Below, one piece after another: positions 9,155-27,527 of a stretch of 45,778 nucleotides of DNA. The DNA lies in assembly GCF_012940005.1 (NCBI RefSeq), contig NZ_SPMX01000067.1, forward strand, positions 1 through 45,778, read 5' to 3'. The DNA comes from Candidatus Accumulibacter contiguus. Lineage in GTDB: Bacteria; Pseudomonadota; Gammaproteobacteria; Burkholderiales; Rhodocyclaceae. How positions within the stretch are numbered: the stretch's first letter is position 1; every line of letters begins with the position of its first letter. The notes below the pieces were generated by a model, which did not search any database, was not told where the DNA came from, and saw only the letters and a program-made list of their open reading frames with translations. The position numbers were made by a program, and so were the translations under genes.

Positions 9155-10435
9155 GTGCGCAAGCTTTTTGTCAGTCACAGTTCCAAGACTCCCGATAACA
9201 TCAAGCTGCTCCATGCCCTCTGCGCCAGGTTGGGGCAGGCCGGAACTGGTTGCGAGGTCGTCTTCGATCAGGGCGGCATGATCGTCGGCGGCGCTGACTG
9301 GTACAACACGATAAGCCGCTGGATGGCCCAGTGTCACGCAGCGGTGATCCTGTTCTCCAAGGCCGCCCTGTATGACTCGGACTGGGTCAAGAAGGAAGCC
9401 AACAATCTCGCCTGGCGCAAGGAACTCCAGAGCAACTTCTTCCTCATCCCCGTGCTTCTGGATGGACTGGAGCCGAAGGATCTCGAAGCGGAACTGACCG
9501 GAATTCTCAACATCACCGTCAACCAGTGCATCCGGGAGGTAGACGATACCGAGACTCTGGCTCAGGCGATCCTCGCTGCAATCGCCTCGCAGAGTGCGCT
9601 GGTCGGGTGCGAACCGATCGACCCATCCGAGCCCACCTTCGAGCCAAACGAGGGTTCGATCGCGCACCTGCTGCATCGGGCGGCGGGCGCAGACGACCTG
9701 GCGGAGGTGGCCGGACGGATCGGGGTGAAGCTTCCCGCCTGGCCGCCAGACGCAGGCAGGCAAGCAGCACTCGGCCTCGCGCGATATCTGCTCGAAGAGC
9801 CGAATACAGGCATCGAGCGCCTGCAGGAAGTGCTGGACAAGTTCGCGGTCTACGCCGAGAAGCTCGACAAGCGATACGCCGACGAACTTCTCCAGCACCT
9901 GCAGGCGCGATGGGTGTCGACGGAGGCCGCGCGTACGCTGCCGGCAACAGCGGTCGAGCGGCGCTTCGCAGCACTCAACGGCCAGCACCTCGGCGGCTAC
10001 ACAGCGTCGCGTTATGTCGAGCGAGCCTGGCCCCTGACGCGCCGCCGGGAAGTCGTCCCGGTGGCTCCGGGCAGCCGTACCTACGAGGCCATCCGCCGTG
10101 ACATCGAGGACCATTTCGCGCGCGGCCGCGTCCTCACCCCGGAGGCCAGAACCGATCGGGTCAACAAGCCGACAACGCCGATCGTCGTCCTGTTGCCGAC
10201 GCTATGTATCGAGGGACATTCGCCTCATCGCCTGCTCGATCGGCTGCGCGACACCTTCAAGCGGGTGATCTTTCTCATCGATGCAGGTCCGGTCGTGCCG
10301 GCGTGGTTGCCCGATGATGTGAGCTTGCTGGAACCCGCCCTCGACATTGGCACCGAGCAGTCCCAATTGGACCTGTTCGACGACGCCAGGGACTTCATCG
10401 ACCATCAACTCTACGGAAGTGTCAGAAATGGGTGA
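9155..10435 (+). CDS. TIR-domain protein, first gene of the forward conflict operon
   Basis: About 426 residues. Residues 1-145 form a TIR domain: the first strand is RKLFVSHSS, and the predicted NAD+-cleaving glutamate is Glu81 in [11 protein letters not shown], so it looks catalytically competent. A helical linker follows (about 175-260). After it comes [20 protein letters not shown] with [19 protein letters not shown], and a C-terminal alpha/beta part ([20 protein letters not shown]). These resemble the inactive-STAND (iSTAND) module of MoxR-associated conflict proteins; this part is inference. The GTG at 9155 is chosen because GAAGGGAG sits just upstream and the TIR strand starts immediately; an in-frame ATG at 9107 is the alternative. 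The stop overlaps the MoxR start by 8 bases (ATGGGTGA), so the two are co-translated. Confidence 0.85.
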
Positions 10436-11411
10436 CGAGATCTATCAGCCAAAGCATTTCCGTCTTCCGGCAAGCAACGTCTGGCCGGGGGGCGCCGACT
10501 TCCCGCCTTATGTCTTCAACGAGGAGATCACGATCGCCGCCGACGTGGCGTTCGCCACGGGCCGGCCGCTGCTGGTATCGGGCCCGCCAGGCAGCGGCAA
10601 GAGCATGCTCGCGCCGGCACTGGCGTCGCTCAAGAGATGGCGTTATCTGCAATACACGTTTACCTCGCGCAGCCGGCTGGAGGATCTGACCGGCGATCTC
10701 GATCACCTGCGCCGGCTCAACGACGCGCAGGCCGCGACGCCCGGGCAGAGCCTGCCGCCCCGCTGGACCTATCTGCAGCCCGGTGTGCTCTGGTGGACCT
10801 TCGATCCGGCAGGGGCGGGCACGCTGGGCGCCAGCGAAAGCGAGCGGCGAAACCATGCACAGCACTTCGAAGCCCCGCGACATCCGGAAAGCGGGCGGAC
10901 GCAAGGCAATGTAGTGGTTTTGCTGGACGAGATCGACAAGGCCGAGCCCGATTTGCCGAACGACCTGCTGGAGCCGCTCGATCGCCGACGATTCCAGGTG
11001 CCCCAGGGGCCCGAGGTGAAGGCAGGTGGCAGACTGAAGTATCTGGTGCTCATCACCACCAACGGCGAGCGCGAGCTGCCGCCGGCCTTCCTGCGCCGCT
11101 GCGTCTGCCTGTCGATCAAGGACCCCGACAAGGACCGGCTGCTCGCCATTGCGGCCCAGCATTTCCCGAAGGGGAACGAAGACCTGCACCGGGGCGTCGC
11201 GGAGCGGCTTCTGGAGCATCGCCGTAGCGCCAAATCGATGGATCTGCGCCCGCCGAGCACCAGCGAGTTCCTCGACGCCATCCGGGCCTGTGCGCAACTC
11301 GGCATCCAGCCCGACCCGCAGGATCGGGTATGGCAGCAGATCGCCAAGGCCACGCTGGCCAAAAGGAGCTTCGAGGATGAGCGGGAACAGGATGTCGGCA
11401 CGGCGTGGTGA
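10428..11411 (+). CDS. MoxR-type AAA+ ATPase (forward arm)
   Basis: A 327-residue AAA+ ATPase. Walker A is GPPGSGKS at residues 52-59, Walker [13 protein letters not shown] around Asp167-Glu168, sensor 1 [14 protein letters not shown] near Asn212, and an arginine-finger-like LRRC at 221-225. The insert after helix 2 and the phrase [19 protein letters not shown] match the MoxR group. MoxR ATPases act as chaperone-like switches with vWA partners, and here the next gene (11377-12378) encodes such a partner. Start at the ATG overlapping the TIR stop. It overlaps the vWA gene by 35 bases. A second, diverged MoxR of nearly equal length sits in the reverse arm (22746-23741), and the phrases around Walker B are clearly related (DEIDKA..D.PNDLL.ELD). 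Confidence 0.93.
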
Positions 11412-12378
11412 AATCGGGCTGGGCGATCTCGCCACCGCCCTCGCCAGGCTGGAGATCGTCTCCGAGGCACAACTGCGCGTCGTGGGCCGTTGCCTCGGGC
11501 TCGGCGGACTGTCGTTCGGATCGGTCGGCACGCTGCAAACTGCGGCGGACGCACGCCTCAAGCACCGGCGTCCGCCGCCCAGGCCCCAGGAACCGAAACC
11601 GCAGCGGCAGCTACCGCCCTTGCCTGCAGCACCGCCCGGTCCGCCGGCGGAGCGTCTGGACACCGTCATGGAGCCATTGCCGGCGGCGGTGTCCAGCGAA
11701 ATCCTTCGCCCTGAATGGTTCGCACAGCCCGCCGCGGTTATCCCGAGAGAGCGTGGCGCGCCCCGGGCCGCGCTGTTTCCCCAACACACGGCACCCGGCC
11801 TCCTGAGTGCCGCGGTCGCCACGCTCCGCCCCGGCCGGTGGCCCGACATCGACCGGCTGGTGGAGCACATCATTGCCAACCGGCCGTTTCGCGAGGTACC
11901 CAGGCTGCCGGTTCCCAGTCAGTCGCGCGGCGTGCAGCTGCTACTCGACCGCAACGCGCCGATGACCCCGTTCTACGCCGACCAGGGCGATCTGGTACGT
12001 TCCTTCGCCGCGGTCGTCGGCCAGTCGCGCTGCGAGGTATGCGAATTCGTCGACGACCCGGCCGCCGCATGCGCGTACTCCTTGGCTGACCAGCCAACGG
12101 CCTGGCGCCCACAGCCAGGCCGGCCGGTGGTCGTCGTCAGCGATTTCGGCCTCGGCGAATCCTCGGGGTCCGCCCCTCGGCTCCCGCCACAGGCCTGGCG
12201 GCGTTTCGCCACCGCGCTCAAGCGGCGCGGCTGCCCGCTGATCGCCATCGTTCCTTTCCCGCCCGCCGCCTGGCCGGTGTGGGTCGAGCGTCACTTCATC
12301 GCCATCCATTGGGACCCGCGCACGCGCGCGGAGAACGTGCGTGCCCTGGTTGGCGCCGGACATCTGGTCGCGCCATGA
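11377..12378 (+). CDS. Divergent vWA-domain partner of MoxR
   Basis: 333 residues. The N-terminus (GLGDLATALARLEIVSEAQL, then RVVGRCLGL) is a helical unit like the start of CoxE-type MoxR partners. A Pro-rich linker spans about 65-95. The C-terminal half carries a vWA-like Rossmann core: VQLLLDRNAPMTPFYADQ takes the place of the metal-site motif, and RPVVVVSDFGLGES matches the second conserved strand (usually ..ISDG..). The MIDAS motif DxSxS is reduced to DRNAP, so Mg2+-dependent ligand binding is doubtful. The ATG at 11377 has AAGGAG 8 bases upstream; a second ATG at 11392 is possible. The stop overlaps the next start (ATGA at 12375). The vWA call rests on motif shape and context with MoxR. 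Confidence 0.75.
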   Translation: MSGNRMSARRGEIGLGDLATALARLEIVSEAQLRVVGRCLGLGGLSFGSVGTLQTAADARLKHRRPPPRPQEPKPQRQLPPLPAAPPGPPAERLDTVMEPLPAAVSSEILRPEWFAQPAAVIPRERGAPRAALFPQHTAPGLLSAAVATLRPGRWPDIDRLVEHIIANRPFREVPRLPVPSQSRGVQLLLDRNAPMTPFYADQGDLVRSFAAVVGQSRCEVCEFVDDPAAACAYSLADQPTAWRPQPGRPVVVVSDFGLGESSGSAPRLPPQAWRRFATALKRRGCPLIAIVPFPPAAWPVWVERHFIAIHWDPRTRAENVRALVGAGHLVAP

Positions 12379-14519
12379 GCTGGGTGCAGCCGCAGCCTTA
12401 TGACCACCGGCTGTTCGACCAGATCGATCTCGGATCGCCCTTCGGCCGCCTGTGCCTGATCCTGGCACCGGCGCTGCGGATCGAGCCACGCCTGCTGCGC
12501 AACGCCCGCCAGCGCTATCTGCCCCGTAGCGACGCCAGCCTGGAGAATCGGCTGTGGTTCAGTCGCGTGATCGAGACCCGTAGCACACGTTCGGTGAACC
12601 TGCGGCCCGGCCTGGCGCGACGGCTGGTCGATCAACTCGCGGTCCAGGGCGGCCCGCATGGCCGCGAACGGCTGGCGAGAATCTGTGACTTCATCGCCGA
12701 GCAGACCCGCGACTGGGACCCGCTGGACCGGATCGAGCAATCCCTGCGCTGGGCGGTCAGGGACGACGACCAGGCGCGGGTCGGCGAACTCCTGCGCGAG
12801 TTGCTCCGCCGGATCGCTACCAGCAGCGAGGAGCGCAGCCGCGCCGATCTGGCCCGCTGGATCAAGGGCGCACTGCCGCCCTTGCAGGCCGTGACCGAGG
12901 CCCATCGCGAAAGCGGCTGGCTGGCGCAGTTCGCCGGTGCCGCCCTCGGCGACACCGGCATCGTCCTGCGCGGCCACGGCACGCCGCGGGAGCCGATGCC
13001 CGGCTGGCTCGCCACGCTCCTGCCGGCGAGCGCTGGCCTGACGCTCGGCCTTCGCCTGGGTCGCAGCGACGAGCGCCTGATTCTCGAATGTCTGGAACCG
13101 GAGCCCGGCCTGCCGCGTCTGGACCTGTTCACGCCGGCACCGGCACCGGTGCATATCGAGTGCGAAAATCGCGCGCAAGGCTCGCCGGGCTGGGTGTCGC
13201 TGTTCGTCGGCTGCCGCATCCCGGTTGGTCGGTCTTGCCACGCCCTGATCCTGCAGACCCTTGACGGTCGACGCTTCCGGGTGGCGAGCCGCGAGGGCAG
13301 CGAAGCGATCCGTGCCGATCATTCACCGTCAAGGAGTGTGGTTTTCGTGTGCGCGTCGGGAGACGAGAAACACGCGTTTCGCCTCGCCGACTTGCTGAAA
13401 CGGCAGGGCGTTTCCGTTCGCGTCGAGCCACTCGCGGCGTCGATGCGGAAAATGCCTGACTCCGCTGCCGCGGCAGACCCCGACGAGCAACTGGTGGTGC
13501 TGTGGTCCCGGCATGCCGCCAGCGCAATGGAGAACGATCCCGAGCGGGTACGCAACGTCTTCTCGCCGGCAGCGTCCGGCGCGGCTTACCGTTTGCTCAT
13601 CGGACTCGACAGGACGCCGCTTCCCGAGGGCATCGGCGCCGGCGGAGCCCCGGCGGCACGACTCGATTTCTCCGAAAGGTCGGCTGATTGGGGCAGGGAC
13701 GAAGCGCAAGCCGTGCTGTCCGCCTTGTCGTCCGAACGTCCGGTGGTGCTGCAAGTCCTGCGGTCGGACCACACGCTCGAGGAATTCAGGCCGGCGCGCC
13801 TGGCCGCCGACGTTGCCGAAGTCTTGCCGGCCACCCCAGGCCGGCAGGAACGGGCGAGCGCCCTGGCACAGCAGATCGAAGCCAGCCTGCGGCGGCGCCG
13901 TCCACGTGGTGGCATCGTCGATACCGTCGAGATCGGCGGCGAAGTCGAACGGGCTCTCGTCCGCGCCGGCGAGCACGAAGCCGCCCGCGCTTACGCGGAA
14001 CGTGGGCTGCGCGGCCTGAGCAGCGACCGTGGCAGAGACCCGGCCCAAACGCCCTCCGAACCCGAGCGGGAGCCCCTGGCCGAGGCGAAGAAGACCGCCG
14101 CGACCGACATCTACCTGAGCCACGCCCGCGCCGACCAGTCGGTCGCCCGTGAGCTGGCCAAGCGGCTCACCGGAGCGGGCTTGCGCGTCTTCCTCGACGT
14201 CGCCAGTGTGCGAGCAGGGGATAACTGGCATCAGAAGGTCGAGGAGGCCCGTTGTGTCGTGGTCCTGTGGACCAGCGCGGCGCGCGAAAGCGATCATGTT
14301 AAGGCGGAGGCCGCTTGGGCCATCGAGCGGAACAAGTATTTCCCGGCCGTGCTGGACGATTTCCCGAGCCCCCCGCCTTTCGCGAGCCTCCCGCCGATGT
14401 TTACGCGGTACCAAGTCGCCGACCTACGGGGTTGGCCGCGGCAGAAGGAAGCCGAAGCTGCCTTCGAGCGGTTTCTGATGGAACTCAGGGACTCCATCGC
14501 GGTACTGACAACATACTGA
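12375..14519 (+). CDS. Double-TIR protein: degenerate TIR followed by intact TIR
   Basis: 714 residues. The N-terminal 300 residues (FDQIDLGSPFGRLCLILAPA, LENRLWFSRVIETRS, and a helical region rich in Arg and Leu) resemble the central part of MoxR/vWA-associated regulators, but I cannot name a family firmly. Residues about 321-440 read as a TIR fold (RSVVFVCASGDEKHAFRLAD, later QLVVLWSRHAASA) without the catalytic Glu. Residues about 577-714 are a good TIR domain (TDIYLSHARADQSVARELAK, VVVLWTSAARES) with Glu645 in SDHVKAEAAWA. One dead and one live TIR in the same chain suggests that the dead copy regulates or scaffolds assembly. The start overlaps the vWA stop by 4 bases. The next gene begins 93 bp downstream. 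Confidence 0.82.
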   Translation: MSWVQPQPYDHRLFDQIDLGSPFGRLCLILAPALRIEPRLLRNARQRYLPRSDASLENRLWFSRVIETRSTRSVNLRPGLARRLVDQLAVQGGPHGRERLARICDFIAEQTRDWDPLDRIEQSLRWAVRDDDQARVGELLRELLRRIATSSEERSRADLARWIKGALPPLQAVTEAHRESGWLAQFAGAALGDTGIVLRGHGTPREPMPGWLATLLPASAGLTLGLRLGRSDERLILECLEPEPGLPRLDLFTPAPAPVHIECENRAQGSPGWVSLFVGCRIPVGRSCHALILQTLDGRRFRVASREGSEAIRADHSPSRSVVFVCASGDEKHAFRLADLLKRQGVSVRVEPLAASMRKMPDSAAAADPDEQLVVLWSRHAASAMENDPERVRNVFSPAASGAAYRLLIGLDRTPLPEGIGAGGAPAARLDFSERSADWGRDEAQAVLSALSSERPVVLQVLRSDHTLEEFRPARLAADVAEVLPATPGRQERASALAQQIEASLRRRRPRGGIVDTVEIGGEVERALVRAGEHEAARAYAERGLRGLSSDRGRDPAQTPSEPEREPLAEAKKTAATDIYLSHARADQSVARELAKRLTGAGLRVFLDVASVRAGDNWHQKVEEARCVVVLWTSAARESDHVKAEAAWAIERNKYFPAVLDDFPSPPPFASLPPMFTRYQVADLRGWPRQKEAEAAFERFLMELRDSIAVLTTY

Positions 14520-14612
14520 CAAAATTATGGGAAGATTTCCCCGTGGATGGAAGCGGCTTGTCAGTCAATGCCGGACGCACTCGCAGCCGGTTTTACGCGC
14601 GGGAGATAGGCC

Positions 14613-15581
14613 ATGTTTCGAATCCTGAGTCTTGACGGCGGCGGCATCAAGGGCGCGTTCGCCGCATCGGTACTCGCCACGCTCGAAGAAGATACGGGCT
14701 GCGCGGCAGCCGATCACTTCGATCTGATCGCCGGCACGTCCACCGGCGGCATCATCGCCATCGGACTCGGACTCGGGCTGCCGGCGAGGAAGGTCTGCGA
14801 CTTCTACGCCGGGAAAGGCTCGACGATCTTTCCCGGGACCAGCCTGGTGCAGCGAACCGGGGGGCGGTTGCGACAGCTTTTCGGCCCCAAGCACTCGCAG
14901 GCAGTGCTGCGGGATGCCTTGGTGGAAGTTTTTGGCGAGCGCAAGTTTGGCGAGTCGAAATGCCGCCTGGCGATTCCCGCCTACGACGCCATCGGCGGGC
15001 GCATCTTCGTGATCAAGACGGCGCATCACGAACGCTTCCGCTACGACATCGATGCGCCGGCGGTCGATGTCGCGCTGGCGACCTCGGCAGCGCCGACCTA
15101 CTTCGCCGCGGCGCCCTTTCCCACCCATGCCGATGCCAGTTACGTGGATGGCGGCGTGTGGGCGAACAGCCCGGTCATGGTGGCGGTGACCGAGGCGGTG
15201 GCCTTCCTCGGCATTCCGCTGGACGATATCGATGTGCTCAGCGTCGGCACGACAACCACCCCCTTCAACATCGCTGCGCACGTCCAATCCGGCATCGCGC
15301 AGTGGAATGCCGGTCTGGTCGAACTGATGTTCGAAGGCCAGATGGAAGCTGATCTCGCCCAGGCGAAGCTGCTGCTCAACGGGCGCCTGCACCGCATCGA
15401 CGTCACGGCCCGGGAGGGCGAATTCTCCCTCGATGACGCGCGCCCCGAGAAGATCCAGCGCCTGATCAACCTCGGACGAGCTGAGGCCGTCAAGAAGAAG
15501 AACCTCGAGGCCGTCAAGGCACGCTTCCTGAACGGCGTGGCCGCCACACCCTTTAAACCGTTTCATCAGCCGGCCGGCTGA
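14613..15581 (+). CDS. Patatin-like phospholipase (candidate membrane-lipid effector)
   Basis: A 322-residue lipid acyl hydrolase. The oxyanion loop is GGGIKG at residues 9-14, the nucleophile elbow is GTSTGG with Ser43, and the second catalytic residue is Asp179 in VDGGVWANSP: a complete Ser-Asp dyad. The size and the compact form resemble CapV-type patatins used as cell-killing effectors in CBASS, but there is no cyclic-nucleotide synthase nearby. Its setting between two TIR genes implies the same role: degrading the cell's own phospholipids on activation. The ATG at 14613 follows GCGGGAGATAGG. It is 19 bp upstream of the TIR-SLOG gene, so these two are co-transcribed. Housekeeping roles are possible but less likely given the context. 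Confidence 0.9.
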   Translation: MFRILSLDGGGIKGAFAASVLATLEEDTGCAAADHFDLIAGTSTGGIIAIGLGLGLPARKVCDFYAGKGSTIFPGTSLVQRTGGRLRQLFGPKHSQAVLRDALVEVFGERKFGESKCRLAIPAYDAIGGRIFVIKTAHHERFRYDIDAPAVDVALATSAAPTYFAAAPFPTHADASYVDGGVWANSPVMVAVTEAVAFLGIPLDDIDVLSVGTTTTPFNIAAHVQSGIAQWNAGLVELMFEGQMEADLAQAKLLLNGRLHRIDVTAREGEFSLDDARPEKIQRLINLGRAEAVKKKNLEAVKARFLNGVAATPFKPFHQPAG

Positions 15582-15600
15582 ATACACAGGAGTCCGAAGC

Positions 15601-17709
15601 ATGGATACACGTCCCCCGCTCATTCTTCATCTATTGGCTCACCCAAAGTCGGTGGCGGCCAACGAAATGGCCACGGCACTGATGCACCGCTTCGTCGAGC
15701 CGCCGGCGAGCGGCGGTTTGCGCATTCCGGTGTTTTTCACACCCGACCGGGGCGACGATCTCCCGCCGACCTTGAGCAGCACCGGCGACATCCGGCTTGC
15801 GGCAGCCCAACATACCATCGTCGTCGTGCTGGGGGACGAGCGCATGCTACGCACGCTACCGAACGGGACGGGCGATGCCTGGATCAAGTTCGTGAAAGGC
15901 GCGATCGCACGGGCGCCGCTCGATTCGAGCCCGCACCATGTCCTGCCGGTGGCATTGGATCAGGAAGGATTCCGCCTCGGCGACGCGATCCACATTCTGC
16001 CCGCGACGCTGGCGCCTGGCGTCAGCGCGAGCGACGCCAAGGAGCGTCGCCTGGCGGAGGTGTCGTTCCACATCGCGGCGCGGTCGATTCAGTTGCTGGG
16101 GCACGGCAAGGTTCCGGCGATCGCGCCGGATCGCATGCAGGCCCCGGTGCGGATCTTTCTCAGCCACGCCAAGGCCGACCTGGACAAACAACACCACGAC
16201 GACCCGGTACGCCAGGTCCGCAACTTGTTGAACGAACTGCCGGTCGAGCAGTGGTTCGACGCGCAGCAGATCGCCACCGGCCAGGATTTCGCCGACGCCA
16301 TCTCCGCCGGCATCCGCGATAGCTCGATCATGCTCGCTTTCCAGACCGATCACTATAGCTCGCGTCCGTGGTGCCGGCGCGAGGTGCTGGAGGCCAAGCG
16401 CTTCGGGGCGCACGTGTTGATGGTCGAAGCGCTTCAGTCGGGCGAGCCGCGCAGCTTTCCCTATGCTGGCAATGTGCCGACGGTGCGCTGGCAATTCCGT
16501 AAGGATGCGCGGGTCGATGCCCAGCGGGTGATCGACCGGGCCGTGCTGGAAGCGCTGCGCTTCAAGCACAACCGGGCAGTGCTGGACAGCACCGCCGCGC
16601 CGGACGAGTGGGTGCTGCCGGCCGCGCCCGAGGCCCTGACCTTGGCGATCGCATGCGCCGACCTGGACCACGACAAAACCTTCCTCTACCCGGATCCGCC
16701 GCTGGGCCGGGAGGAGCTGCAGGTGTTGCAGCAGCTTCGCCCCAAGGCCCGCTTCCTGACGCCGCTGAGCAAGGTCGCGCGCTGGCAGCGGCCTGCGTCT
16801 ATCGACACCATTGCGGTCTCCATATCCGACAGCGATGACGCGCGCAAGTACGGCCTGTCGACCGAGCATTTCGCCACGCTGACCGACGAGATCCATCTGT
16901 ACCTGCTGCTGGCGGGGCTGAAGATCGCCTACGGCGGCGCGCTCAAGGGCAGCTTCTCCGGCGCGCCCAACTTTACGGTGCGCCTGTTCGAACTGGTGCG
17001 CGCCTATTCGAAACTTGCCCAGGGGGCCGAGGCGTCGCCCCTGGAGGGTGCCGTACTCAATGTCGCTCCGTGGCCGCTGCGCTTGGACTATGGCGACGCC
17101 GAATGGAAGTTGTTCGCCGGGAAGGTCGCAAACTACGAGGAAGGTCCACGACCCGATCTGCCTTGGGGTGACGACGAGGTGTTTCCACCGTCGGCGGGTG
17201 CTCGCGTGCTCGCTTCGGATACGCCGCAGCGCCGCTATGCATGGGCGCGTGGCCTGACCGCGATGCGATCGCGCATCATGGCGCTCTCGCAGGCACGGCT
17301 GCTGACCGGCGGCAGACTGGCGGGATTCGCCGGTCTGGTGCCCGGCGTGGTGGAAGAAGCCTGCTTGTCGCTGACGCAGCAGAAACCGTTGTACGTGGCC
17401 GGCGGCTTCGGCGGTGCAGCGCGGGCCGTGAGCGATGCGCTGCTCGGCATCGAGCGGCTTGAGTTCGCGGATATGTGGTCGCGGCAGCACATCCCTGATT
17501 TCGATGCAGCACGGGGGTTCTACGCACAGGGCGGCGGCGAATTCCGCTCCCTGGCACAGATGGGCAAGGACATCGGCGCATGTGGCACAGCCGGCCTGGC
17601 GTCTGCGCTGAACAACGGACTCGACGAGGTGGAAAACCGGGAACTGATGGCTTCCACGGATCCGCAGCGAATTGCCTGGCTAGTGCTTACGGGGCTCGCG
17701 CGACTTTGA
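15601..17709 (+). CDS. TIR-SLOG fusion protein (with N-terminal degenerate TIR-like domain)
   Basis: 702 residues in three parts. Residues 6-125 have Rossmann-like strands (LILHLLAHPKSVAANEM, HTIVVVLGDERML, HVLPVALD) and read as a decayed TIR. Residues about 183-310 form a TIR domain (VRIFLSHAKADLDK) with a candidate catalytic Glu261 in RPWCRREVLEAKR. Residues about 400-700 look like a SLOG nucleotide-binding fold: IAVSISDSDDARKYGLS, LAGLKIAYGGALKG, and near the end FAGLVPGVVEEACLSL with PLYVAGGFGGAARAV. SLOG domains bind nucleotide-derived signals, as in the Thoeris protein ThsA, where the signal comes from a TIR enzyme. Having both in one chain suggests self-contained signal production and sensing, or sensing that turns on the TIR. 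The ATG at 15601 has CAGGAG upstream. Confidence 0.82.
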   Translation: MDTRPPLILHLLAHPKSVAANEMATALMHRFVEPPASGGLRIPVFFTPDRGDDLPPTLSSTGDIRLAAAQHTIVVVLGDERMLRTLPNGTGDAWIKFVKGAIARAPLDSSPHHVLPVALDQEGFRLGDAIHILPATLAPGVSASDAKERRLAEVSFHIAARSIQLLGHGKVPAIAPDRMQAPVRIFLSHAKADLDKQHHDDPVRQVRNLLNELPVEQWFDAQQIATGQDFADAISAGIRDSSIMLAFQTDHYSSRPWCRREVLEAKRFGAHVLMVEALQSGEPRSFPYAGNVPTVRWQFRKDARVDAQRVIDRAVLEALRFKHNRAVLDSTAAPDEWVLPAAPEALTLAIACADLDHDKTFLYPDPPLGREELQVLQQLRPKARFLTPLSKVARWQRPASIDTIAVSISDSDDARKYGLSTEHFATLTDEIHLYLLLAGLKIAYGGALKGSFSGAPNFTVRLFELVRAYSKLAQGAEASPLEGAVLNVAPWPLRLDYGDAEWKLFAGKVANYEEGPRPDLPWGDDEVFPPSAGARVLASDTPQRRYAWARGLTAMRSRIMALSQARLLTGGRLAGFAGLVPGVVEEACLSLTQQKPLYVAGGFGGAARAVSDALLGIERLEFADMWSRQHIPDFDAARGFYAQGGGEFRSLAQMGKDIGACGTAGLASALNNGLDEVENRELMASTDPQRIAWLVLTGLARL

Positions 17710-17922
17710 CCTGAGGGGTTGAGCGCGCTCGGAAACCGCGCCCCGCTCCGGGTTGCTCGTGGTCGCTGTTTCCCGCTTGCCTGCCTCGAGAAGCCGTCCT
17801 ACTATTCGCCGGTCGTCGTCTCGCACGCCAGGCGACCGGCTCGCTGGTCACTCTGGGCAGCGCGGCACCGGCTACTCGCCAGACGCCCTGAAAGCACTGC
17901 CATTGACCCACCGATCCGCCTC

Positions 17923-19011: not shown

Positions 19012-19328
19012 ACCCGTTCGCCTCAGCATTCGGGCTGCGCCGCTTGCCTCGCCGGCAGTCGAGCCAGGCCCACCACAACCGACTCCGATTGGCGATGCGC
19101 TGGAAGCTGCCGGCCATCAGCCTGCGCATCGAGCGATGTTGTGGGGAGTGATCGCATCGAGCAAGCGGATCGCGCGGTTGCCCATTGAGCGAGCCAGCGG
19201 ATCTTCGGGCGCGGCGCGAGCTTTCCTGACCAACCGGACGCTGAAATCCCACGTGGCGGCGAAGATCGGTGCGCGTGCGTGTCCCGTTCGCATGCGCCAT
19301 TGGCCGCCACTGACTCGCGAAAGATGAC
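19012..19328. other. 317-bp convergent intergenic spacer of the conflict island
   Basis: This lies between the stops of the two converging FGE genes. Open frames exist on both strands but have no ribosome-binding site or domain pattern. I see no T-tailed hairpin. The flanking 25-bp arms (18947-18971 and 19342-19366) could fold across it as a long stem and limit read-through. Confidence 0.4.
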
Positions 19329-22300
19329 TCAAGGCTGGGGCGGGACGCGCACGCACCGAAACCCGACGCCCCTGACCCAGTCCCCGGGGTCGACGTCGAA
19401 CCGGGGCGCGGAGCGCAGGAACGCGGGCGGGTCGTAGAACGAGCCGCCGCGCAAAACCCGCCCCCGGCCTGCTCCTTCTGGATCAACAAAGCTTCCCGAC
19501 TGGTATTCGCCATACCTGTCCCGGGTCCACTCCCAGACATTGCCATGCATGTCGTACAGTCCCAGCGGGTTCGGCAGTTTCTGCTTGACTGGCTTCATTT
19601 GGCCATTGGAGTTCCCGTCAAACCAGGCACGGCGGCCAAGCTGGCTCTCATCGTCGCCGAACGACCAGGCGCCGCGGCTGCCGCCACGCGCGGCGTACTC
19701 CCACTGCGCTTCACTCGGCAGATCTCCGCCGACGCTCCGGCAAGAAGAGCGCGCCTGCTCCCAGGTCACGGTTGCGACCGGTCGCTCGTCGCGCTGCGGG
19801 TGTTCGGCGAACGATTGCGCATACTGCCAGTTGGTCGTTTCGCTGGCGGCGATCTCGAACCGCGACAAGGTGACGACGCGCGCCGGTTCGACGATCTCGT
19901 CCTGGGCGGTCATCGCATCGCCTTTACGCGAACCCATCGTGAAGCTGCCGGGACAGATCGAGACCCACTCGATGCCGTTCTCCGTCGTGGTTTCCGGCCC
20001 GCCGTAAACTCGCGCTTCACCGCGCGTCGCGAGAACGCGCCACGGCAACGGAGCCTGCGCGACCGGCTTCGCACCGGGAAAATCGACGGCACGGGCGAGG
20101 GCAGCCAGATCGCCGGCGCTGACGATTCCCCATGGGCCGGGATGATCGGCCAGCCGGCGCCCGGCGGCGGCGTGCTCGCGTCCGGGCGGCAGGATCAGCA
20201 GCACCTGCGTATTGCGGTTCAGCTCGGGACTGGGTTCCCGCCACTCGTCGAGGAGTTCTTCCCAGTCGGTGGCGACGAGCACCTGATCGGCGCTGCCTTT
20301 GTCGAGCAAGCGGATCGCCAGTTGCCGCGCGGACGGGTCGGTGTACGGCGTTGCGATGACGGCCAGCGAGCGCAGCGGCCATCCGTTGGCGCAGGCGCGG
20401 ATCGGCTGCGCCAGCGAACCGGCGCGCAACAGAACGCCGCCGCCGGCCACAAGTACCGCGTTTTCGCTTTCCGCCCAGCGCCAGTCAAGCGCCACTTCCG
20501 CGCCGGCCGGGATCTGCGGCAGCGTGACGCTGGCGCGCGCGCTGCCGAGCGTGAGCTGGTAGGCGTTCGTGCCGCTGGCTTCGGCGATGCGCAGCGTCTG
20601 CGCCGCGAGCGTCGGGTGATCGTGGATCGGGTCGCTGACCAGCAGGCACGGCGGATGCTCGGCGAGCAGGCGATGCGTGGCGACCGCGCAGGCGGCCAGC
20701 GCCAGGCTGCCGAGCAGCGCCTTCGCCAGCACCAGCCGCGGCGCTTCTGGCAGCGGCTGCGGTGTGCTCAGGTAGAGATCCGCGGCAAACCCGAGTTGGC
20801 GCAGGCGATGGCGTTTCGTCACCTTCAGATCGGCGAAGGACCAGGTCAGATAGATGTGCGCGCCGTCGTCGTCGCGATCGGCCGGGCGGTGATCGGCGGC
20901 CGCGAACTCGCGCAGACGGTGCTCGATTTCCGGCCGTAATGCTTCGTCGGCGAGTTCGGTCAGCCGGTCGGCGGCGGCGTCGGGGTCGGTGTACAACTGC
21001 AGCAGCGCGTGCTCGACCTGCCAGCGCCGGCTGGCGAGCGAGTCGCGCCAGGGTAGCAGGGGGTTCTCCTGCGTCCGCTTTTCGTCGTCGGCCGCGAGGT
21101 AGCGCGCCTGCCACCAGGTCAGTGCCTGCCGCGCCAGACTGTGTACGCGCAGCGTTTCCCCGTCGCACGGCTCGCTGCGCAACAGCCAGTTGATCCGCCG
21201 GCGGCGGTCTTCGGGCTGGGCCGCCGCGGCGAGGACCGCGTCGACTCCCCAGGCGCTGGCCGGCAGAGCGAGCGCGGCGCGCAAGGTCTGCGCCGTCGCC
21301 GCGTCGGCCTCGCCGCCGCCGAGCGCGACGACCGCCGCCCACTGACGAAGCGCTGCCGGCGGACCATCTTCGGCCGTCGCGGCGGGGACTGCGGGCTTGT
21401 CGACGGCGCCGAGCCAGTCCGGCAGTTGCGGCAAGGCGACGACTTCGAGCCGCAAGTCATTCGCGGCGAACAGCGCCGCGAGTTGATCGCCGCCCGGCGA
21501 GCAGTCGACGAATGCCAGTCGCGGCCAGTGCTGCAAGGCGCCGAGCAGCCGCCGGGTCTCTTCGCGATGCAGTGGATGTTCGAGCCGGCGGCGCAAGCTC
21601 GCACCGTCCGGGAAGATCGCCACCAGCGCCTGGCGGCCCGGCCCTTCCTCGGCGAGCGGCCGATAGTCGGGCTGCTCGGGCCAGTCGATACGCTGCGGCG
21701 CGTCAGTAAAGAAACCCAGCCGGGATTCGAGGCCGGCGGCGCGCAGCGTGGCGCCCAGTTGCGCGGCGATTTCCTTGGCCGTCGGCGACGCGAGATGGCG
21801 GTCGATCCAGAACCAGATGGCGCGCTCGTAGACCGCGGGCTGGAAGCAGAAACGCATGAAGCCGCCGGCGCGGGCGCTCTGCTCGACGGTCCTCGGCAGA
21901 TCGAGGCGGCGCGTCGGATCGTCGGCGACGAAGCGTTCGATGTTCCAGACGAGCTGGCGGCGGGCGCGCGCGTCGATCAGCGCGCCGTCGTCGCGCGGCG
22001 GTGGCGGCAGCGGTTGCCAGCCGAAGCCGCGGTATGCCTGAGGCGTGGCGGTGATGAGCGGAAATTCCCGGCGGTAGCGCCAGCGCAAAGCCAGCGCCAG
22101 GGCGAGCGCGAGTACGCCGAGCAGCGCCAGCGGTAGCGGGCCGAGCCGGTTCGGTACGCGGATCGCCGCTGGCGGCAAGTCGTCGATGCGCCAGGTCCAG
22201 AATCGTTCGACCGGTTGATCGGGCAGTTCCGGGTCCAGGTTTGGCTGGCCCGCTGGCGGTTCCGGTCGTACAGACAGCTCCCTGATTCTTACATCCGCCG

Positions 22301-22742
22301 GTGGGTCTGGCGGCCACAGCGACCAGGCCAAGGCGACGAGCAGCAGCAACGCGGCGCCGATGGCCAGCAAACGCTTCCACAAGTCCGGCGGCGGCGGGGA
22401 ACGAGGCGGCGCGAAGGGTGATCGGTCGCGCTCGCGCTGGCGCGCGTCCGGCGCGGTCGCTGCCGGCGATCGCGCGTTCGCGGGTTCATCGGTCGGCCAG
22501 TCGGCGTCGTGGTCGGGGCACCAGGCGGCGAACAGGCCGTCGAAAGTCTGGCGCTGCGCTGGGGTCTTGACCAGCAGCGCGGCGAGCAGCGACCGGAGTC
22601 CGGCACGGTCGAGGCAGGGCGAACAAGCGAAGAGGTGGCGAAGGCGCTCGATCTCGCACGGACCCACCGGCACGCCGTTCAGGCGCAAGGCCGCCAGGAA
22701 GTCGCCGAGTCCGGCGAGGCGGTCGCTCGCGTCGGGCGGCAT
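19329..22742 (-). CDS. CoxE-like N-terminus, dead vWA, membrane segments and C-terminal FGE fold (reverse arm)
   Basis: 1137 residues. Residues 1-75 (DRLAGLGDFLAALRLNGVPV, and LRSLLAALLVKTPAQRQTFD) match the helical start of CoxE-type MoxR partners. Hydrophobic helices lie at about 122-143, 201-222 and 669-692. Residues about 290-440 have a vWA-like core (RAIWFWIDRHLASP, LVAIFPDGASL), but the metal-site DxSxS is DRHLA, so it is probably inactive. A long central Ala/Leu-rich region follows. From about 922 it is an FGE-sulfatase fold (ICPGSFTMGSRKGD, DLPSEAQWEYAARGG, GLYDMHGNVWEWTRDR, RVLRGGSF, GFRCVRVP) without the catalytic Cys pair. It thus fuses in one chain the vWA and FGE roles that are separate genes in the forward arm. 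The ATG at 22742 lies 3 bp after the MoxR stop. Confidence 0.82.
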   Translation of the reverse strand: MPPDASDRLAGLGDFLAALRLNGVPVGPCEIERLRHLFACSPCLDRAGLRSLLAALLVKTPAQRQTFDGLFAAWCPDHDADWPTDEPANARSPAATAPDARQRERDRSPFAPPRSPPPPDLWKRLLAIGAALLLLVALAWSLWPPDPPADVRIRELSVRPEPPAGQPNLDPELPDQPVERFWTWRIDDLPPAAIRVPNRLGPLPLALLGVLALALALALRWRYRREFPLITATPQAYRGFGWQPLPPPPRDDGALIDARARRQLVWNIERFVADDPTRRLDLPRTVEQSARAGGFMRFCFQPAVYERAIWFWIDRHLASPTAKEIAAQLGATLRAAGLESRLGFFTDAPQRIDWPEQPDYRPLAEEGPGRQALVAIFPDGASLRRRLEHPLHREETRRLLGALQHWPRLAFVDCSPGGDQLAALFAANDLRLEVVALPQLPDWLGAVDKPAVPAATAEDGPPAALRQWAAVVALGGGEADAATAQTLRAALALPASAWGVDAVLAAAAQPEDRRRRINWLLRSEPCDGETLRVHSLARQALTWWQARYLAADDEKRTQENPLLPWRDSLASRRWQVEHALLQLYTDPDAAADRLTELADEALRPEIEHRLREFAAADHRPADRDDDGAHIYLTWSFADLKVTKRHRLRQLGFAADLYLSTPQPLPEAPRLVLAKALLGSLALAACAVATHRLLAEHPPCLLVSDPIHDHPTLAAQTLRIAEASGTNAYQLTLGSARASVTLPQIPAGAEVALDWRWAESENAVLVAGGGVLLRAGSLAQPIRACANGWPLRSLAVIATPYTDPSARQLAIRLLDKGSADQVLVATDWEELLDEWREPSPELNRNTQVLLILPPGREHAAAGRRLADHPGPWGIVSAGDLAALARAVDFPGAKPVAQAPLPWRVLATRGEARVYGGPETTTENGIEWVSICPGSFTMGSRKGDAMTAQDEIVEPARVVTLSRFEIAASETTNWQYAQSFAEHPQRDERPVATVTWEQARSSCRSVGGDLPSEAQWEYAARGGSRGAWSFGDDESQLGRRAWFDGNSNGQMKPVKQKLPNPLGLYDMHGNVWEWTRDRYGEYQSGSFVDPEGAGRGRVLRGGSFYDPPAFLRSAPRFDVDPGDWVRGVGFRCVRVPPQP
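19342..19366 (-). repeat. 25-bp perfect inverted repeat, right arm (end of reverse FGE gene)
   Basis: Partner of 18947-18971; the centres of the arms are about 395 bp apart. It lies inside the last codons of the 1137-residue reverse-arm gene and encodes GFRCVRVP. Confidence 0.85.
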
Positions 22743-22745
22743 CGT

Positions 22746-23741
22746 TCAACGCAGCCGGGCGAGGTCGCCAGCGTCCTTGATCAGCGCGCCGAGGGCGGGC
22801 AAACTGGCGAGCGGGCAGCCATCCAGGGTCTGCGCATCGATCCGCTGCGCGCTGAGGATGCAGAGCCAGGTCAGCAGTTCGGCGGTCGACGGTTTCTTGT
22901 CCAGCCCCTGCACTTCGCGCAGTTGCCAGAAACGCCGGCGGGCGGCGGCGCGGGTGTCGGCGTCGAGATTCGGGAAACCGCTGCTGTCGATGCCGGCCAT
23001 GCTCTCGACAGCGGCTTCGACGAGCTTTTCGTTCAGTTCGATGCGGTGGAAGATGCAGCGCCGCAGAAAGGCATCGGGCAGGCGGCGTTCGTCGTTGCTG
23101 GTGACGATCACGATGGGCCGCCGCCCGCTTTTCGGCTTGATCCATTGCTCGGGGTCGAAGGGGTGCGGGAAGCTGTGCTGGTCGAGTTCGTGCAAGAGAT
23201 CGTTCGGGAAGTCGCGCGCGGCCTTGTCGATTTCGTCGATCAGGACGACCGCGTCGCCGTCCGTCTCGTACGCCTGCCAGAGTGCCCGTTTGTGCAGGAA
23301 ACCCTGCCGTACGCCGGCGGCTTCTTCGCCGATTCCCGGTTCTTTATGGGCTTCGCGGCGAGCCGACTGGGCCCAGTGCAGATAGCCGACGGCATCGAAT
23401 TCGTACATCAGGTCTTGCGCGGTCGAGGTCGATTTGACCAGGAACTTGAAGATCGGGATGCCGAAATAGGCACTCACGAAATCCGCTGCCTGCGTCTTGC
23501 CGGTGCCGGGTTCGCCGGTCAATAGCAGCGGGCTGCCGGTATGCAGCGCCATGTTCAGCGCCAGCAGCAATTCGTCGGAGGGCCGGTAACGCAAGGCTGC
23601 CGTCGGGTGGCTGCCGAGGAAGCGCGGCGCTTGCCTGCGTGCCAGCAGTTTCTTCCTGCCCGCGGGGTCGTGTGCCGCCGGGGTCGCCGGCGGCTGGGCA
23701 ATCAGTTCGAACGGCGGGAACGGCAAATCGTCAGCGGGCAT
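22746..23741 (-). CDS. MoxR-type AAA+ ATPase (reverse arm)
   Basis: 331 residues. Walker A is GEPGTGKT (residues 76-83), Walker B VVLIDEIDKAARDF with Asp169-Glu170, sensor 1 VIVTSNDERRLPDAF near Asn216, and LRRC as a likely arginine finger at 226-229. The region between Walker A and B (DLMYEFDAVGYLHWAQ) is typical of MoxR proteins in conflict operons. It overlaps the upstream TIR gene by 11 bases and is followed after 3 bp by the vWA-FGE gene, so the three form a tight translationally coupled set. It should use ATP to remodel or gate the TIR and vWA-FGE proteins. It is clearly a paralogue of 10428-11411 but diverged, so the two arms probably do not cross-operate freely. Confidence 0.93.
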   Translation of the reverse strand: MPADDLPFPPFELIAQPPATPAAHDPAGRKKLLARRQAPRFLGSHPTAALRYRPSDELLLALNMALHTGSPLLLTGEPGTGKTQAADFVSAYFGIPIFKFLVKSTSTAQDLMYEFDAVGYLHWAQSARREAHKEPGIGEEAAGVRQGFLHKRALWQAYETDGDAVVLIDEIDKAARDFPNDLLHELDQHSFPHPFDPEQWIKPKSGRRPIVIVTSNDERRLPDAFLRRCIFHRIELNEKLVEAAVESMAGIDSSGFPNLDADTRAAARRRFWQLREVQGLDKKPSTAELLTWLCILSAQRIDAQTLDGCPLASLPALGALIKDAGDLARLR

Positions 23742-26100
23742 CGCGCAGTCTCCAGAAACTCGGGTCGTAATGCGGCGGTGGCCAGGCGCCGCTGCGGGTG
23801 AGTTCGCGCAGTTCCTCGAACAGGGTACCCCAATTGTCGGGTTCTCCGCGGCGGATGGTGCTGACCGCTTCGTCGAAAGGCATCTCCTTGCGGCTGCCGA
23901 GCAGGAGATCGGGAAAGGTCTCCCGGTAGCGGTCGTCGCAGCCGCAGATCGTCTCGTTGCGGAAGTAAGCGCGCAGGTCCTGGCGGCGAACGGCGGCCAG
24001 GGCTTCGAGTTCGGCGAAGTGAAAGCCCACGTCGGAGTCGCATTCTTCGATCAGCCGTTCGACCGTGCCGGCCAGTTCGTCGGTGTGTTCGCTTTCCAGC
24101 GCGACGATCGAGACGACGCGGACCTTGGCCTGCCATCCGTCGGCGCCGAGTTCCGCTGCCAGGCGCGTGCGGCACCAGTCGGCCACGGCATTCAGAACGT
24201 CGGCCGCGTCGCCTTGTGCTGCGCTGGCCTGCCAGCCAAGGATCAGGAAGCAGAACGTCATCCCGGCGAGCGCGGCCGGGTCGAGCAGTGCGTCGAGCAG
24301 CGGCTGGTGCGGCGTGCGGCGGTAACGACGGCGCGCGAGTTCGTCGACGTCCTGCGCGTGCCGGGTGCCTGGGGGCAGTTCGAGCGGCTGGTAGTAATAG
24401 ACTTCGCGCTCGCGCGCATTGCCGACCAGGTGCTGGCGGATCATTGCCGGGAACTCGCTGGTGCGGCAGCCAGGTTTGCCGAGCGCGACGACGTGATGGA
24501 TCCTGCGCCGGGGATACGAGTAAAACTCGTCGCGCGCGCCCGACAAGGCGTGGCGCTGATGGGTACGATCGAGCAGCAGGTTGACCAGGTCGGGGTTCTG
24601 CAGCCGCTTCGGCGCGTCGATCTGCCAGGTCGAGTAGCGCGTCCAGGCGCTGATCTGTCCGCTGGCGTGCTGGTGCAAGGCGACCACCGGGTCGATCTTG
24701 CGCACGAAGACCGCTTCGAGCCAGGCGAGGCCGGCCCTGGCGGCGGCGTGCGCGGTACTGCGCGGGTTGCACTGAAAGAGCACCGCTCCCTTGACGCTTT
24801 CGACCAGGAGCGATCCCTGCGGCAACACTTCTTCGCCCCCGTCACCCACCAGGTTGAGAAACAGCAGCGAGACCGAGCGCGACTGCCGCAGGCTGCTGGC
24901 CAGGTCCGGCCACGGCAGGATTTCGCCGTCGGCGCGATCCTGCAGCAGCAAGCCGTCGCGCGAGGCCGGCCCGTAGTAATACAGCAGGCGCGTCGAACCG
25001 GCTTGCAGCTCGTGGCGCAACGAATCCGCGGCGGGCGCTGCCCGTGCGGGCCCGGGGTTGTCCGGCCAGTAGCGCTGAAAGAAGCGCCGCAAGTCGTCGA
25101 AATGCGCCGCCTGGCCGCTCTGCGCCGAAGCGGCGAGCAGCACCCGGCCGGGAAAGTAGCAGAGATGGCGGGGATACTCGGGGAAACCCGGTTCGCCGCT
25201 GTTCTGGAATTCAACCGTCCAGCCGGCCTGGCTGAGCCGACGGCCCTGGTAAGCGATCGTGCTCCAGGGCAGCCGCTGCAGTTGCCCGGCGCGGGTGAGC
25301 AGCCGGACGCGCAGCGGCGCGTAGGTCGGATCGACCGGCCGGTCGCTGCCGAAGGCCAGCGCGAACAGGTTGGTGAAGGTCGCCGGCTCGCTGCCGAAGA
25401 GCAACTGGAAGAGCATCTCGCCGTCGAGACCGTAGCCGACGGTCAGCGCGGGGGCAGGGCAGTCGATGCGGGGTTTGATCGCGCCGGCTTGCGGACCCGG
25501 GAAAAACTGGTGTTGCCAGTGGTCCCGCCGGTCTTCGATGAAAATCGCCAGGTCGTGGCGCGCGGCGCTTGGCTGACGAGCCGGCGGCGACAGCGGGGTC
25601 ATGTGGCGGGCGGCCCAGTCGGCGACGCGGGCATACAGCAGGTTGCGCTTACCCCGCTCGCTGATCAGGTCCAGCGGCGGCTGCGGGCCGCTGATCAGGT
25701 CCAGCGGCTGCTGCGGGCTGTTGAAGTTGTGTATTGCGGTCAGATCGACCGGGTGCATGCTGCCGTCGACCGCGACCGACAAAGCGGCCTTGGCGACGGA
25801 GCTGACGTAAATGATTCCCAGCTTCAGGGCCCCGCCTTCGTACTGGCGCAGCAGGAACGGCAGCTCGTGGCGAATGACGTAATCGGAGGTCAGGACATTT
25901 GCGCTGACGAGCAGGATCGCCAGTCGTGAATCCGCCAGCGCCTGCTGTATCGTCGGATGGAACGGGTCGCCAATGTCGATTTCTTCGCGGTCGCGCCAGA
26001 CTCGCTCGCGGATGCCGGCGACCGCTTTCAGCGCTGGCAGCAGCTCGTCGCAGTACGGCTTGTCCTGGCTGCTGTAACTGATGAATATCTTGCTGTCCAT
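23731..26100 (-). CDS. TIR protein with CHAT-like (inactive) and iSTAND-like regions
   Basis: 789 residues from the ATG at 26100; a GTG at 26115 is also possible, but GGAGA sits at a good distance from the ATG. Residues 3-135 are a TIR domain (SKIFISYSSQDKPYCDEL) with Glu79 in TSDYVIRHELPF. Residues about 250-480 follow a CHAT-protease layout: LQRLPWSTIAYQG, GRVLLAASAQSG, LLYYYGPASRDGLLL where the catalytic His is expected, and VSLLFLNLVGDGG where the catalytic Cys is expected. Both catalytic residues are absent. From about 530, HHVVALGKPGCRTSEFPAMI resembles the eroded P-loop of inactive-STAND domains, followed by YYYQPLELPPG and MTFCFLILGW. The CHAT and iSTAND calls are inference from motif spacing. 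It heads the reverse operon, mirroring the TIR gene at 9155. Confidence 0.82.
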   Translation of the reverse strand: MDSKIFISYSSQDKPYCDELLPALKAVAGIRERVWRDREEIDIGDPFHPTIQQALADSRLAILLVSANVLTSDYVIRHELPFLLRQYEGGALKLGIIYVSSVAKAALSVAVDGSMHPVDLTAIHNFNSPQQPLDLISGPQPPLDLISERGKRNLLYARVADWAARHMTPLSPPARQPSAARHDLAIFIEDRRDHWQHQFFPGPQAGAIKPRIDCPAPALTVGYGLDGEMLFQLLFGSEPATFTNLFALAFGSDRPVDPTYAPLRVRLLTRAGQLQRLPWSTIAYQGRRLSQAGWTVEFQNSGEPGFPEYPRHLCYFPGRVLLAASAQSGQAAHFDDLRRFFQRYWPDNPGPARAAPAADSLRHELQAGSTRLLYYYGPASRDGLLLQDRADGEILPWPDLASSLRQSRSVSLLFLNLVGDGGEEVLPQGSLLVESVKGAVLFQCNPRSTAHAAARAGLAWLEAVFVRKIDPVVALHQHASGQISAWTRYSTWQIDAPKRLQNPDLVNLLLDRTHQRHALSGARDEFYSYPRRRIHHVVALGKPGCRTSEFPAMIRQHLVGNAREREVYYYQPLELPPGTRHAQDVDELARRRYRRTPHQPLLDALLDPAALAGMTFCFLILGWQASAAQGDAADVLNAVADWCRTRLAAELGADGWQAKVRVVSIVALESEHTDELAGTVERLIEECDSDVGFHFAELEALAAVRRQDLRAYFRNETICGCDDRYRETFPDLLLGSRKEMPFDEAVSTIRRGEPDNWGTLFEELRELTRSGAWPPPHYDPSFWRLRDAR

Positions 26101-26187
26101 CGACGGATTCTCCACGAACGACCGCTGGTATGCCTTTTCGGCGTGAGCATAGCAGGGAATCGCCGCACTTCGGACAGAGCAGCGGGG

Positions 26188-27497: not shown

Positions 27498-27527
27498 CCC
27501 GGATCTTACGATGTCCATCAATCCGGG
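27498..27527. repeat. Intergenic stem-loop (CCCGGAT / ATCCGGG)
   Basis: CCCGGAT at 27498-27504 pairs with ATCCGGG at 27521-27527. The context 'GTAGCCCGGAT...ATCCGGG' is a common short palindromic element of betaproteobacterial intergenic regions. It lies in the divergent gap between the DUF2934 membrane gene and the caspase gene. Confidence 0.5.

Follow-up and report, generated by a model that had tools for sequence, protein, structure and literature searches.

The locus examined here, in a window of 45,778 nt (the whole stretch of DNA analyzed, contig NZ_SPMX01000067.1 of Candidatus Accumulibacter contiguus), raises the question of whether two MoxR-type conflict operons that face each other tail to tail constitute one mirrored system, as an earlier sequence-only reading proposed, or two systems of separate ancestry. 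The convergent arrangement of seven forward and three reverse ORFs is borne out by the window ORF list, and Pfam domains were sought in 27 window ORFs picked from the 112 of at least 120 aa. The tail-to-tail genes are genuine, but the mirror symmetry is largely an illusion, because the two operons differ and the seam between them holds a broken machine for mutating the sensors on both of its sides.

Composition of the two operons

The forward operon begins with F1 (9155..10435, + strand), a TIR protein (TIR_2 2.7e-11) whose C-terminal half has no assigned domain and whose relatives (C130, G015, G024, G026 and G010) share 27-35% identity with it; the longest ORF for this gene starts at 9029. 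It is followed by F2 (10428..11411, +), a MoxR-type AAA+ ATPase (AAA_5 1.1e-12), F3 (11377..12378, +), which is vWA-like by motif only, and F4 (12375..14519, +), which comprises an N-module, a weak TIR-like region, an ATP-cone (residues 492-572, E 6.9e-10) and a TIR domain (TIR_2 1.3e-20). Further downstream lie F5 (14613..15581, +), a patatin-like phospholipase of the CapV type (Patatin 1.8e-26; 280.7 bits against a cut-off of 200 for the NCBIfam model CBASS_lipase, NF041079; 7.8e-37 against a CBASS phospholipase in the PDB), and F6 (15601..17709, +), a TIR-SLOG protein of SLOG cluster2 (LD_cluster2 2.4e-59, TIR_2 1.2e-11). The reverse operon consists of R1 (23731..26115, - strand), a third component in which a TIR domain (TIR_2 1.7e-13) is joined to about 670 residues with no assigned domain, R2 (22746..23741, -), a second MoxR-type AAA+ ATPase (AAA 2.7e-11, AAA_5 3.5e-9), and R3 (19329..22742, -), with a helical N-terminus, a putative vWA-like region and a C-terminal FGE/C-type-lectin domain (FGE-sulfatase 5.1e-40). 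The tight packing noted previously holds for the chosen starts: F1/F2, F2/F3, F3/F4 and R1/R2 overlap by 8, 35, 4 and 11 nt, respectively, and R2/R3 are separated by 3 nt.

Profile searches uphold the MoxR, TIR, patatin, SLOG and FGE assignments of the sequence-only reading, including TIR_2 in F1, F4 and F6 and the TIR, MoxR and FGE of R1, R2 and R3. The vWA calls in F3 and R3 fared otherwise, as no window protein has a Pfam vWA match. In the alignments, VWA_2 matches one of six F3 rows (E 0.016) and none of five R3 rows. For the putative CoxE-like four-helix N-terminus of R3, the MadC VWA protein model gives a match over residues 14-103 with E 0.0022 and 16.9 bits, its cut-off being 600. The first MIDAS motif of F3 is lost, the window copy reading DRNAP where its five genus relatives carry a MIDAS-like motif (DFSDS in three, DYSES and NFSDS). 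Profile comparisons of F3 and R3 with E. coli ViaA, and of one arm with the other, detected no relation, PDB profile searches with both proteins returned no credible relatives, and the fold models were too poor for a fold search (pLDDT 40.6 for F3, 45.8 for a second model). An iSTAND assignment is likewise putative: beyond TIR-type models, iSTAND/VMAP searches with R1 (4 rows) and F1 (6 rows), run with models other than the own profiles of Kaur et al., gave only stray matches of E 0.04 or weaker.

F4 had been described as a double-TIR protein. Its second TIR domain is solid, whereas the first is weak (PADLOC ThsB model, residues 346-400, E 8.4e-6), and the ATP-cone had escaped notice. When F4 is aligned with five FGE-ended relatives, the ATP-cone and TIR occupy the position of their FGE end; the N-module is common to the sensor proteins and, outside the genus, single proteins unite an F3-like region, the N-module and FGE. 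This fits a reading of the forward operon F1-F6 as another system of ternary type, in which ATP-cone + TIR would have taken the place of the sensor end. Plasmid searches yielded no relatives of F4 and, for R1, TIR matches only, in two records.

Retroelement remnants in the seam and the affiliation of F7

The seam between R3 and the last forward gene, F7 (17719..19011, +; start position uncertain), spans 317 bp (19012-19328). It contains two gene starts which the sequence-only reading had missed. One, at 19019..19129 (-), is what is left of the reverse transcriptase (RT) of a diversity-generating retroelement (DGR): of some 330 residues, only the initial 37-38 are present (an RT profile matches over positions 1-38 of 349 at E 5.6e-6, with tblastn in agreement). 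The other, at 19147..19293 (-), is a remnant of the Avd accessory gene, comprising the first 49 of 114 residues (80% identity, E 2e-22; Avd profile E 2e-10). An initial RT match of 96 residues was rejected as a longer remnant because only its first 37-38 residues align well, the rest running antisense through F7. Hence the seam has 38 of 349 RT profile positions rather than a complete RT, and no template repeat (TR) was found in it or elsewhere in the assembly.

The order and strand of Avd 1-49 and RT 1-38 are those of the element in a genome of the same genus, G025, where R1 (partial), R2, R3, an HTH gene, Avd, TR and RT share a single contig with an orthologue of F7 that runs towards them. 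Compared with their own TR, the two G025 variable regions are changed at 14/25 and 13/25 A-sites and at 1/109 other sites each; the element is a DGR with two targets, both FGE ends, whose departures from the TR are almost confined to adenines. In another genome, G026, what appear to be the two extremities of this cassette lie at the ends of two contigs (C106 and C7), and its R3 region differs from the G025 TR at 18/25 A-sites and 14/109 others. The variable region of the window R3, the first DGR target (19336..19468, -), differs from this orthologous TR at adenines (17/24 A-sites, 11/109 others, p 3e-9). That of F7 (18794..18975, approximate limits, +) has a core of 123 nt as against 72 nt in its relatives, being 51 nt longer, and fits the G025 TR poorly (8/16 A-sites, 17/73 others, p 0.036).

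F7 is itself an FGE/C-type-lectin protein (FGE-sulfatase 4.8e-48) that shares 65.5% identity with the FGE lying convergent to the DGR in G025 and 66.6% with that on G026:C7, and the FGE tree groups it with the G025 orthologue (99/98). Its reading as the FGE gene of the forward operon is ruled out by the G025 arrangement and this tree, which place it, by homology, with the reverse operon as the second DGR target; with it falls the shared TIR-MoxR-vWA-FGE mirror. The R3-seam-F7 junction is supported by G025. No support from relatives was found for the F6-F7 junction.

By eye, R3 and F7 each have N-terminal hydrophobic segments. We infer that R1-R2-R3 and the convergent F7 form a ternary-type immune system, with R3 and F7 as apparently membrane-linked C-type-lectin sensors that would have been targets of the DGR between them. 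When their lectin ends bind a ligand, the MoxR ATPase might pass the signal on to the TIR domain of R1, which could cleave NAD+ or produce a nucleotide signal and thereby arrest the cell. In the forward operon, the TIR domains might generate a nucleotide signal sensed by the SLOG domain of F6 and the CapV-like patatin F5.

Separate ancestry and the fate of the retroelement

In the MoxR tree, F2 and R2 fall in two clades, forward-type (98/97) and reverse-type (98/98), each common to other genomes. Since the MoxR genes belong to separate lineages, there was no local duplication; the FGE tree also excludes duplication of one arm as a candidate origin. Across the 28 genus genomes, the own one among them, most of the reverse third component is present in five, in one of them split over two contigs, and a forward-type F4 in five; the pair adjoins in the own genome only, G026 having both on different contigs. 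Such a pairing confined to one assembly is among the outcomes that the sequence-only reading itself had named as refuting it, although G025 backs the R3-seam-F7 junction. No relative has both island flanks adjoining: on contig C87 of G006, a genome with 7% contamination, the genes of the left and right flanks keep their order and orientation, are separated by about 37 kb and are accompanied by no island gene, and in the closed genome G010 the flank genes are far apart. A single layered or part-exchanging system of two diverged paralogous arms is accordingly highly improbable. The TIR-MoxR-(vWA-like)-FGE order does look alike by eye and the arms have domain classes in common; however, their MoxR genes lie in separate clades, their vWA-like regions are not detectably related, either arm is present without the other in the genus, and F7 groups with R3 (the fork uniting their domains has 93/94, below the 95/80 mark).

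We therefore consider it probable that two independent MoxR operons lie tail to tail and that the DGR of the reverse sensors was deleted, leaving these frozen. The deletions would have taken the TR, the HTH gene, the greater part of Avd and the RT apart from its start, so that the sensors could no longer be rewritten and would be inherited as fixed alleles. R3 and F7 look frozen yet still open and constrained: in the window, internal stops are absent from R1, R2, R3 and F7, these genes are at least as long as their orthologues (65-68% identity for complete R1 orthologues, 70-72% for R3), and their pairwise dN/dS values of 0.18-0.42, against 0.19-0.40 among relatives, are averages across long times that cannot date the DGR loss. 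These observations also make a decaying, non-functional island decidedly unlikely, in spite of the lost MIDAS motif of F3 and the genome G005, which has a broken R3 and only an 18-residue RT tail.

That the variable regions are still being rewritten in trans, the RT being encoded at another site and the TR missing from the assembly, is unlikely. The own genome has four other DGRs with DGR-type RTs, and its C132 TR differs from a variable region on C47 at 12/28 A-sites and 0/106 others; PMC10907252 proposes that diversification can act in trans, and a contig with TR and RT may be missing from an assembly that is 98.7% complete in 167 contigs. Nevertheless, the own TRs fit neither window region, scoring at most 19 for R3 and 18 for F7 as against 73 and 30 for the G025 TR, and in a search across the genus the matches in G000 were limited to the two regions of the window and a weak one on C132. 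A short-read assembly artefact, in which collapsed repeats cost the seam its TR and RT, is very unlikely. Contigs of relatives do break here, in G026 (C106, C7) and inside R3 in G002 and G020, where the seam could not be judged for that reason; but the seam preserves unique, separately truncated Avd and RT starts, of a kind that a repeat collapse would not leave, and a similarly gutted RT occurs at another locus of the closed G010. A scan of genome contigs with R3 found that the best 80 of 569 loci all match its FGE part (residues 875-1137). A truncated RT is present in 4/10 examined intervals between paired FGE genes in this genus. DGR loss might even be more than decay, a recurrent, selected step in which RT/TR deletion locks a working hypermutated sensor allele and an adaptive-like receptor would become a fixed innate one, with the rest of the operon under constraint; we regard this as unlikely. 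Under the preferred account of a deleted DGR, frozen sensors beside live-DGR relatives would allow fixed alleles to be compared with alleles that still diversify, and would let one trace across the genus what becomes of diversified alleles once the machinery is gone.

Comparison with known systems

Paper searches turned up no experiment on this locus. The window shares with the MoxR-vWA ternary systems a MoxR-type AAA+ ATPase, in F2 and R2, whose AAA_5/AAA matches exceed the cut-off, and FGE, in R3. As far as the relevant parts of Kaur et al. 2020 (PMC7159879) describe them, about 22% of iSTAND systems have an FGS/FGE C-terminal domain and DGRs are tied to VMAP systems; the likeness lies in MoxR, a third component starting with TIR and a partner protein that has apparent membrane segments and ends in FGS (FGE), while the forward operon of the window adds ATP-cone-TIR, patatin and TIR-SLOG proteins, and iSTAND and vWA are putative here. 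F5 scores above the NCBIfam CBASS lipase cut-off, as in CBASS with a CapV phospholipase; no CD-NTase was found in the 27 Pfam-scanned window ORFs. Thoeris (ThsA SIR2-SLOG and ThsB TIR), in outline, resembles the forward operon in having TIR and SLOG in one operon, but the latter has a TIR-SLOG protein of SLOG cluster2 and a MoxR gene, and the window matched only ThsB-type TIR models and none for ThsA.

A further parallel is with the DGR-diversified ternary systems of multicellular bacteria, degraded loci included, treated in the pertinent sections of Dore et al. 2024 (PMC10907252). There, DGR-diversified lectins are proposed as bacterial immune sensors, a role with no experimental test by 2024, and Accumulibacter is cited for multiple DGRs. 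Like the relatives of the window, those systems, as outlined there, place a lectin-ended sensor beside MoxR, TR and RT and have trans targets; in the window, by comparison, the retroelement is reduced to the Avd and RT starts and both targets are open. DGR-armed MoxR-vWA systems are thus known, and what is newer is the presence of truncated RTs between retained FGE pairs.

Domain composition and distribution of the two operons

The window is all of contig C104, from a source genome of 5.02 Mb in 167 contigs (98.7% complete). Searches with Pfam and NCBIfam bear out most domain calls of the sequence-only reading, namely TIR in F1, F4, F6 and R1, MoxR-type AAA+ in F2 and R2, patatin in F5, SLOG (SLOG cluster2) in F6, and FGE-sulfatase in F7 and R3. 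For F4, read as a double TIR, the TIR itself stands, the first supposed TIR is weakly supported, and an overlooked ATP-cone is also present. The vWA call, by contrast, is not recovered by Pfam in the window proteins. A MIDAS-like motif is seen in five genus relatives of the vWA-like F3, one of them from the same genome (DFSDS in three, DYSES and NFSDS), where the window's F3 shows DRNAP; VWA_2 matches one of six F3 rows (E 0.016), and comparisons with E. coli ViaA and of one arm with the other gave no vWA match. Two structure models were made, their quality too low for use.

A forward-type F4 occurs in 5/28 genus genomes, with two copies in this genome (G000), the remaining F4 matches in the genus being to TIR alone. 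R1 is matched at 1e-10 in six of the 28; most of it is present in G000, G002, G020, G026 and G025 (in the last on two contigs), and the G005 match covers 70 residues of TIR only. In a class sample of 369 evenly drawn genomes, G000 included, F3 and F6 have matches in eight and three genomes, and a profile of R3 residues 1-581 in G000 only, other R3-bearing genus members evidently lying outside the sample. A survey for the tail-to-tail pair, which had been read as one mirrored island, found the two operons adjoining in G000 only, the contigs of G002 and G020 stopping inside R3, with the R3-F7 interval (the seam) beyond reach.

The island is flanked by a caspase-fold gene (27511-29037, plus strand; Peptidase_C14, 6e-43) and a gene whose product combines hydrophobic segments with DUF2934 (26188-27357, minus strand), relatives of both of which sit elsewhere in other genus genomes. 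On G006 contig C87 (L162-L164) the order of the window's left- and right-flank genes is kept; some 37 kb separate the two flanks there, a stretch in which the island genes are absent and which is possibly a variable site.

Ancestry of the MoxR and FGE genes

In the MoxR tree, F2 groups with seven other forward-type genes (from C130 of the same genome, G015, G024, G026, G010, G256 and G239) in a clade of eight rows (98/97). R2 belongs to a clade of six rows (98/98) made up of reverse-type genes, including that of contig C8. RavA joins the R2 group on a very long branch, which leaves the root unsure. The C8 operon (L182 6583-11358) is a third reverse-type operon in this genome, and its R3-like protein has 444 residues and no FGE. 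F7 had been counted in the forward arm, from which the FGE tree removes it: F7 is separated from the FGE domains that terminate the forward-type relatives of F4, pairs with its G025 counterpart (99/98), and belongs to a group adjoining the R3 domains at 93/94, below the program's mark. Since F4 aligns with five relatives ending in FGE, and single proteins outside the genus join an F3-like region, an N-module and FGE, F3 and F4 resemble a sensor that was split and had its end swapped for ATP-cone and TIR.

Retroelement remnants between R3 and F7

R3 and F7 are separated by 317 bp in the window versus 2,514 bp in G025. In the latter (L075), the strand carrying orthologues of R1 (partial), R2 and R3 continues with an HTH gene, then an Avd-type accessory gene, a template repeat (TR) and a reverse transcriptase (RT) bearing a YMDD motif. 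Next comes an FGE gene in convergent orientation that shares 65.5% identity with F7, the whole forming a diversity-generating retroelement (DGR) cassette. The Avd-type gene matches bAvd at 5.7e-9 (36.9 bits, below the cut-off of 40) and the PHROG "Avd protein of DGR" at 1.1e-8. The TR repeats the FGE end in adenine-rich form; relative to this TR, adenine positions are changed at 14/25 in the R3 orthologue and 13/25 in the F7 orthologue, and other positions at 1/109 in each. In G026, the R3 end and HTH start at one contig end and the RT end and F7 orthologue (66.6%) at another are apparently one cassette; its R1 orthologue ORF (L073 4721-9175) has 1484 residues, with about 690 additional at the N-terminus.

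The window seam carries two remnants on the minus strand. One is Avd residues 1-49 (80% identity, E 2e-22); the other, 17 bp beyond, comprises RT residues 1-38 (profile E 5.6e-6) and ends beside the F7 stop. The HTH gene, Avd 50-114, the TR and RT from residue 39 onward are absent. The R3 variable region differs from the G025 TR at 17/24 adenine versus 11/109 other positions (p 3e-9). That of F7 fits poorly (8/16 versus 17/73, over 89 aligned sites), and its variable core (18826-18948) is 123 nt long versus 72 in relatives, 51 nt longer and in frame; this core may not derive from the G025 TR, a point against F7 as a target. When the genus was searched with that TR, matches in G000 were limited to the two regions of the window and a weak one on C132, and none of the genome's own four TRs fits, with scores of at most 19 against 73 (R3) and 30 (F7) for the G025 TR.

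True FGE enzymes have catalytic cysteines; R3 and F7 lack these after RGGS, and both FGE domains are therefore taken as binding folds. R1, R2, R3 and F7 are open in the window, with zero internal stops. Pairwise dN/dS between window and relatives is 0.18-0.42 (R1, R2, R3 residues 1-860 and F7 residues 82-365, the F7 variable region excluded), similar to the 0.19-0.40 among relatives, values which cannot date the retroelement loss.

Four loci of this genome (C132, C57, C68, C78) have TR, RT and variable regions, giving eight TR/variable-region pairs with 11/25 to 21/28 adenine and 0/106 to 9/97 other positions changed. The C132 TR (L043 8309-8443) differs from a C47 region (L048 7914-8047) at 12/28 adenine and 0/106 other positions, a pattern that makes the latter a likely trans target. 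Fourteen intervals were scanned with RT and Avd profiles, ten of them flanked by FGE genes on both sides; the other four, single-target or contig-end stretches, gave no match with these profiles. A near-full RT is present in six of the ten (C132, C57, C68, C78, G025 and G026 C106) and a partial one in four: the window (RT profile positions 1-38), C130 (L050 8421-9328; 212-346), G010 (L080 12458-13746; 206-346 plus 7-53, E 0.0008) and, the weakest, G015 (L077 7653-7916; 316-343, E 0.00096). Targets are convergent in seven of the ten, including all four with a truncated RT. In C130 the second FGE of the pair is also partial. The G010 genome is closed, so its truncation is not a contig-end effect, and its TR is kept, with 14/27 adenine and 2/105 other positions changed. 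Additionally, R3 is broken in G005, where the RT is represented by a tail of 18 residues. In G346 (L209 8340-11964) an FGE gene adjoins a SLOG gene, and a short piece of Avd lies downstream; an RT match there was discounted, being on the opposite strand and stemming from an over-long RT query.

Proposed working and known systems

In the DGR literature searched, mostly outside subscription journals and available in part, neither this locus nor recurrent truncation of the RT between target pairs that are themselves retained was found reported; the portions consulted of PMC10907252 already cover DGR loci that are degraded or act in trans. In the reverse system, R3 and F7 would bind a ligand through their lectin ends and signal by way of a MoxR relay to the R1 TIR. 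The same relay order is proposed for DGR-armed ternary systems in those portions of PMC10907252, which also mention that PMC7159879 proposed another order. For the forward operon, the proposal, made by analogy with Thoeris and CBASS, is that the SLOG domain of F6 would read the TIR products, with the CapV-like patatin F5 perhaps a second reader.
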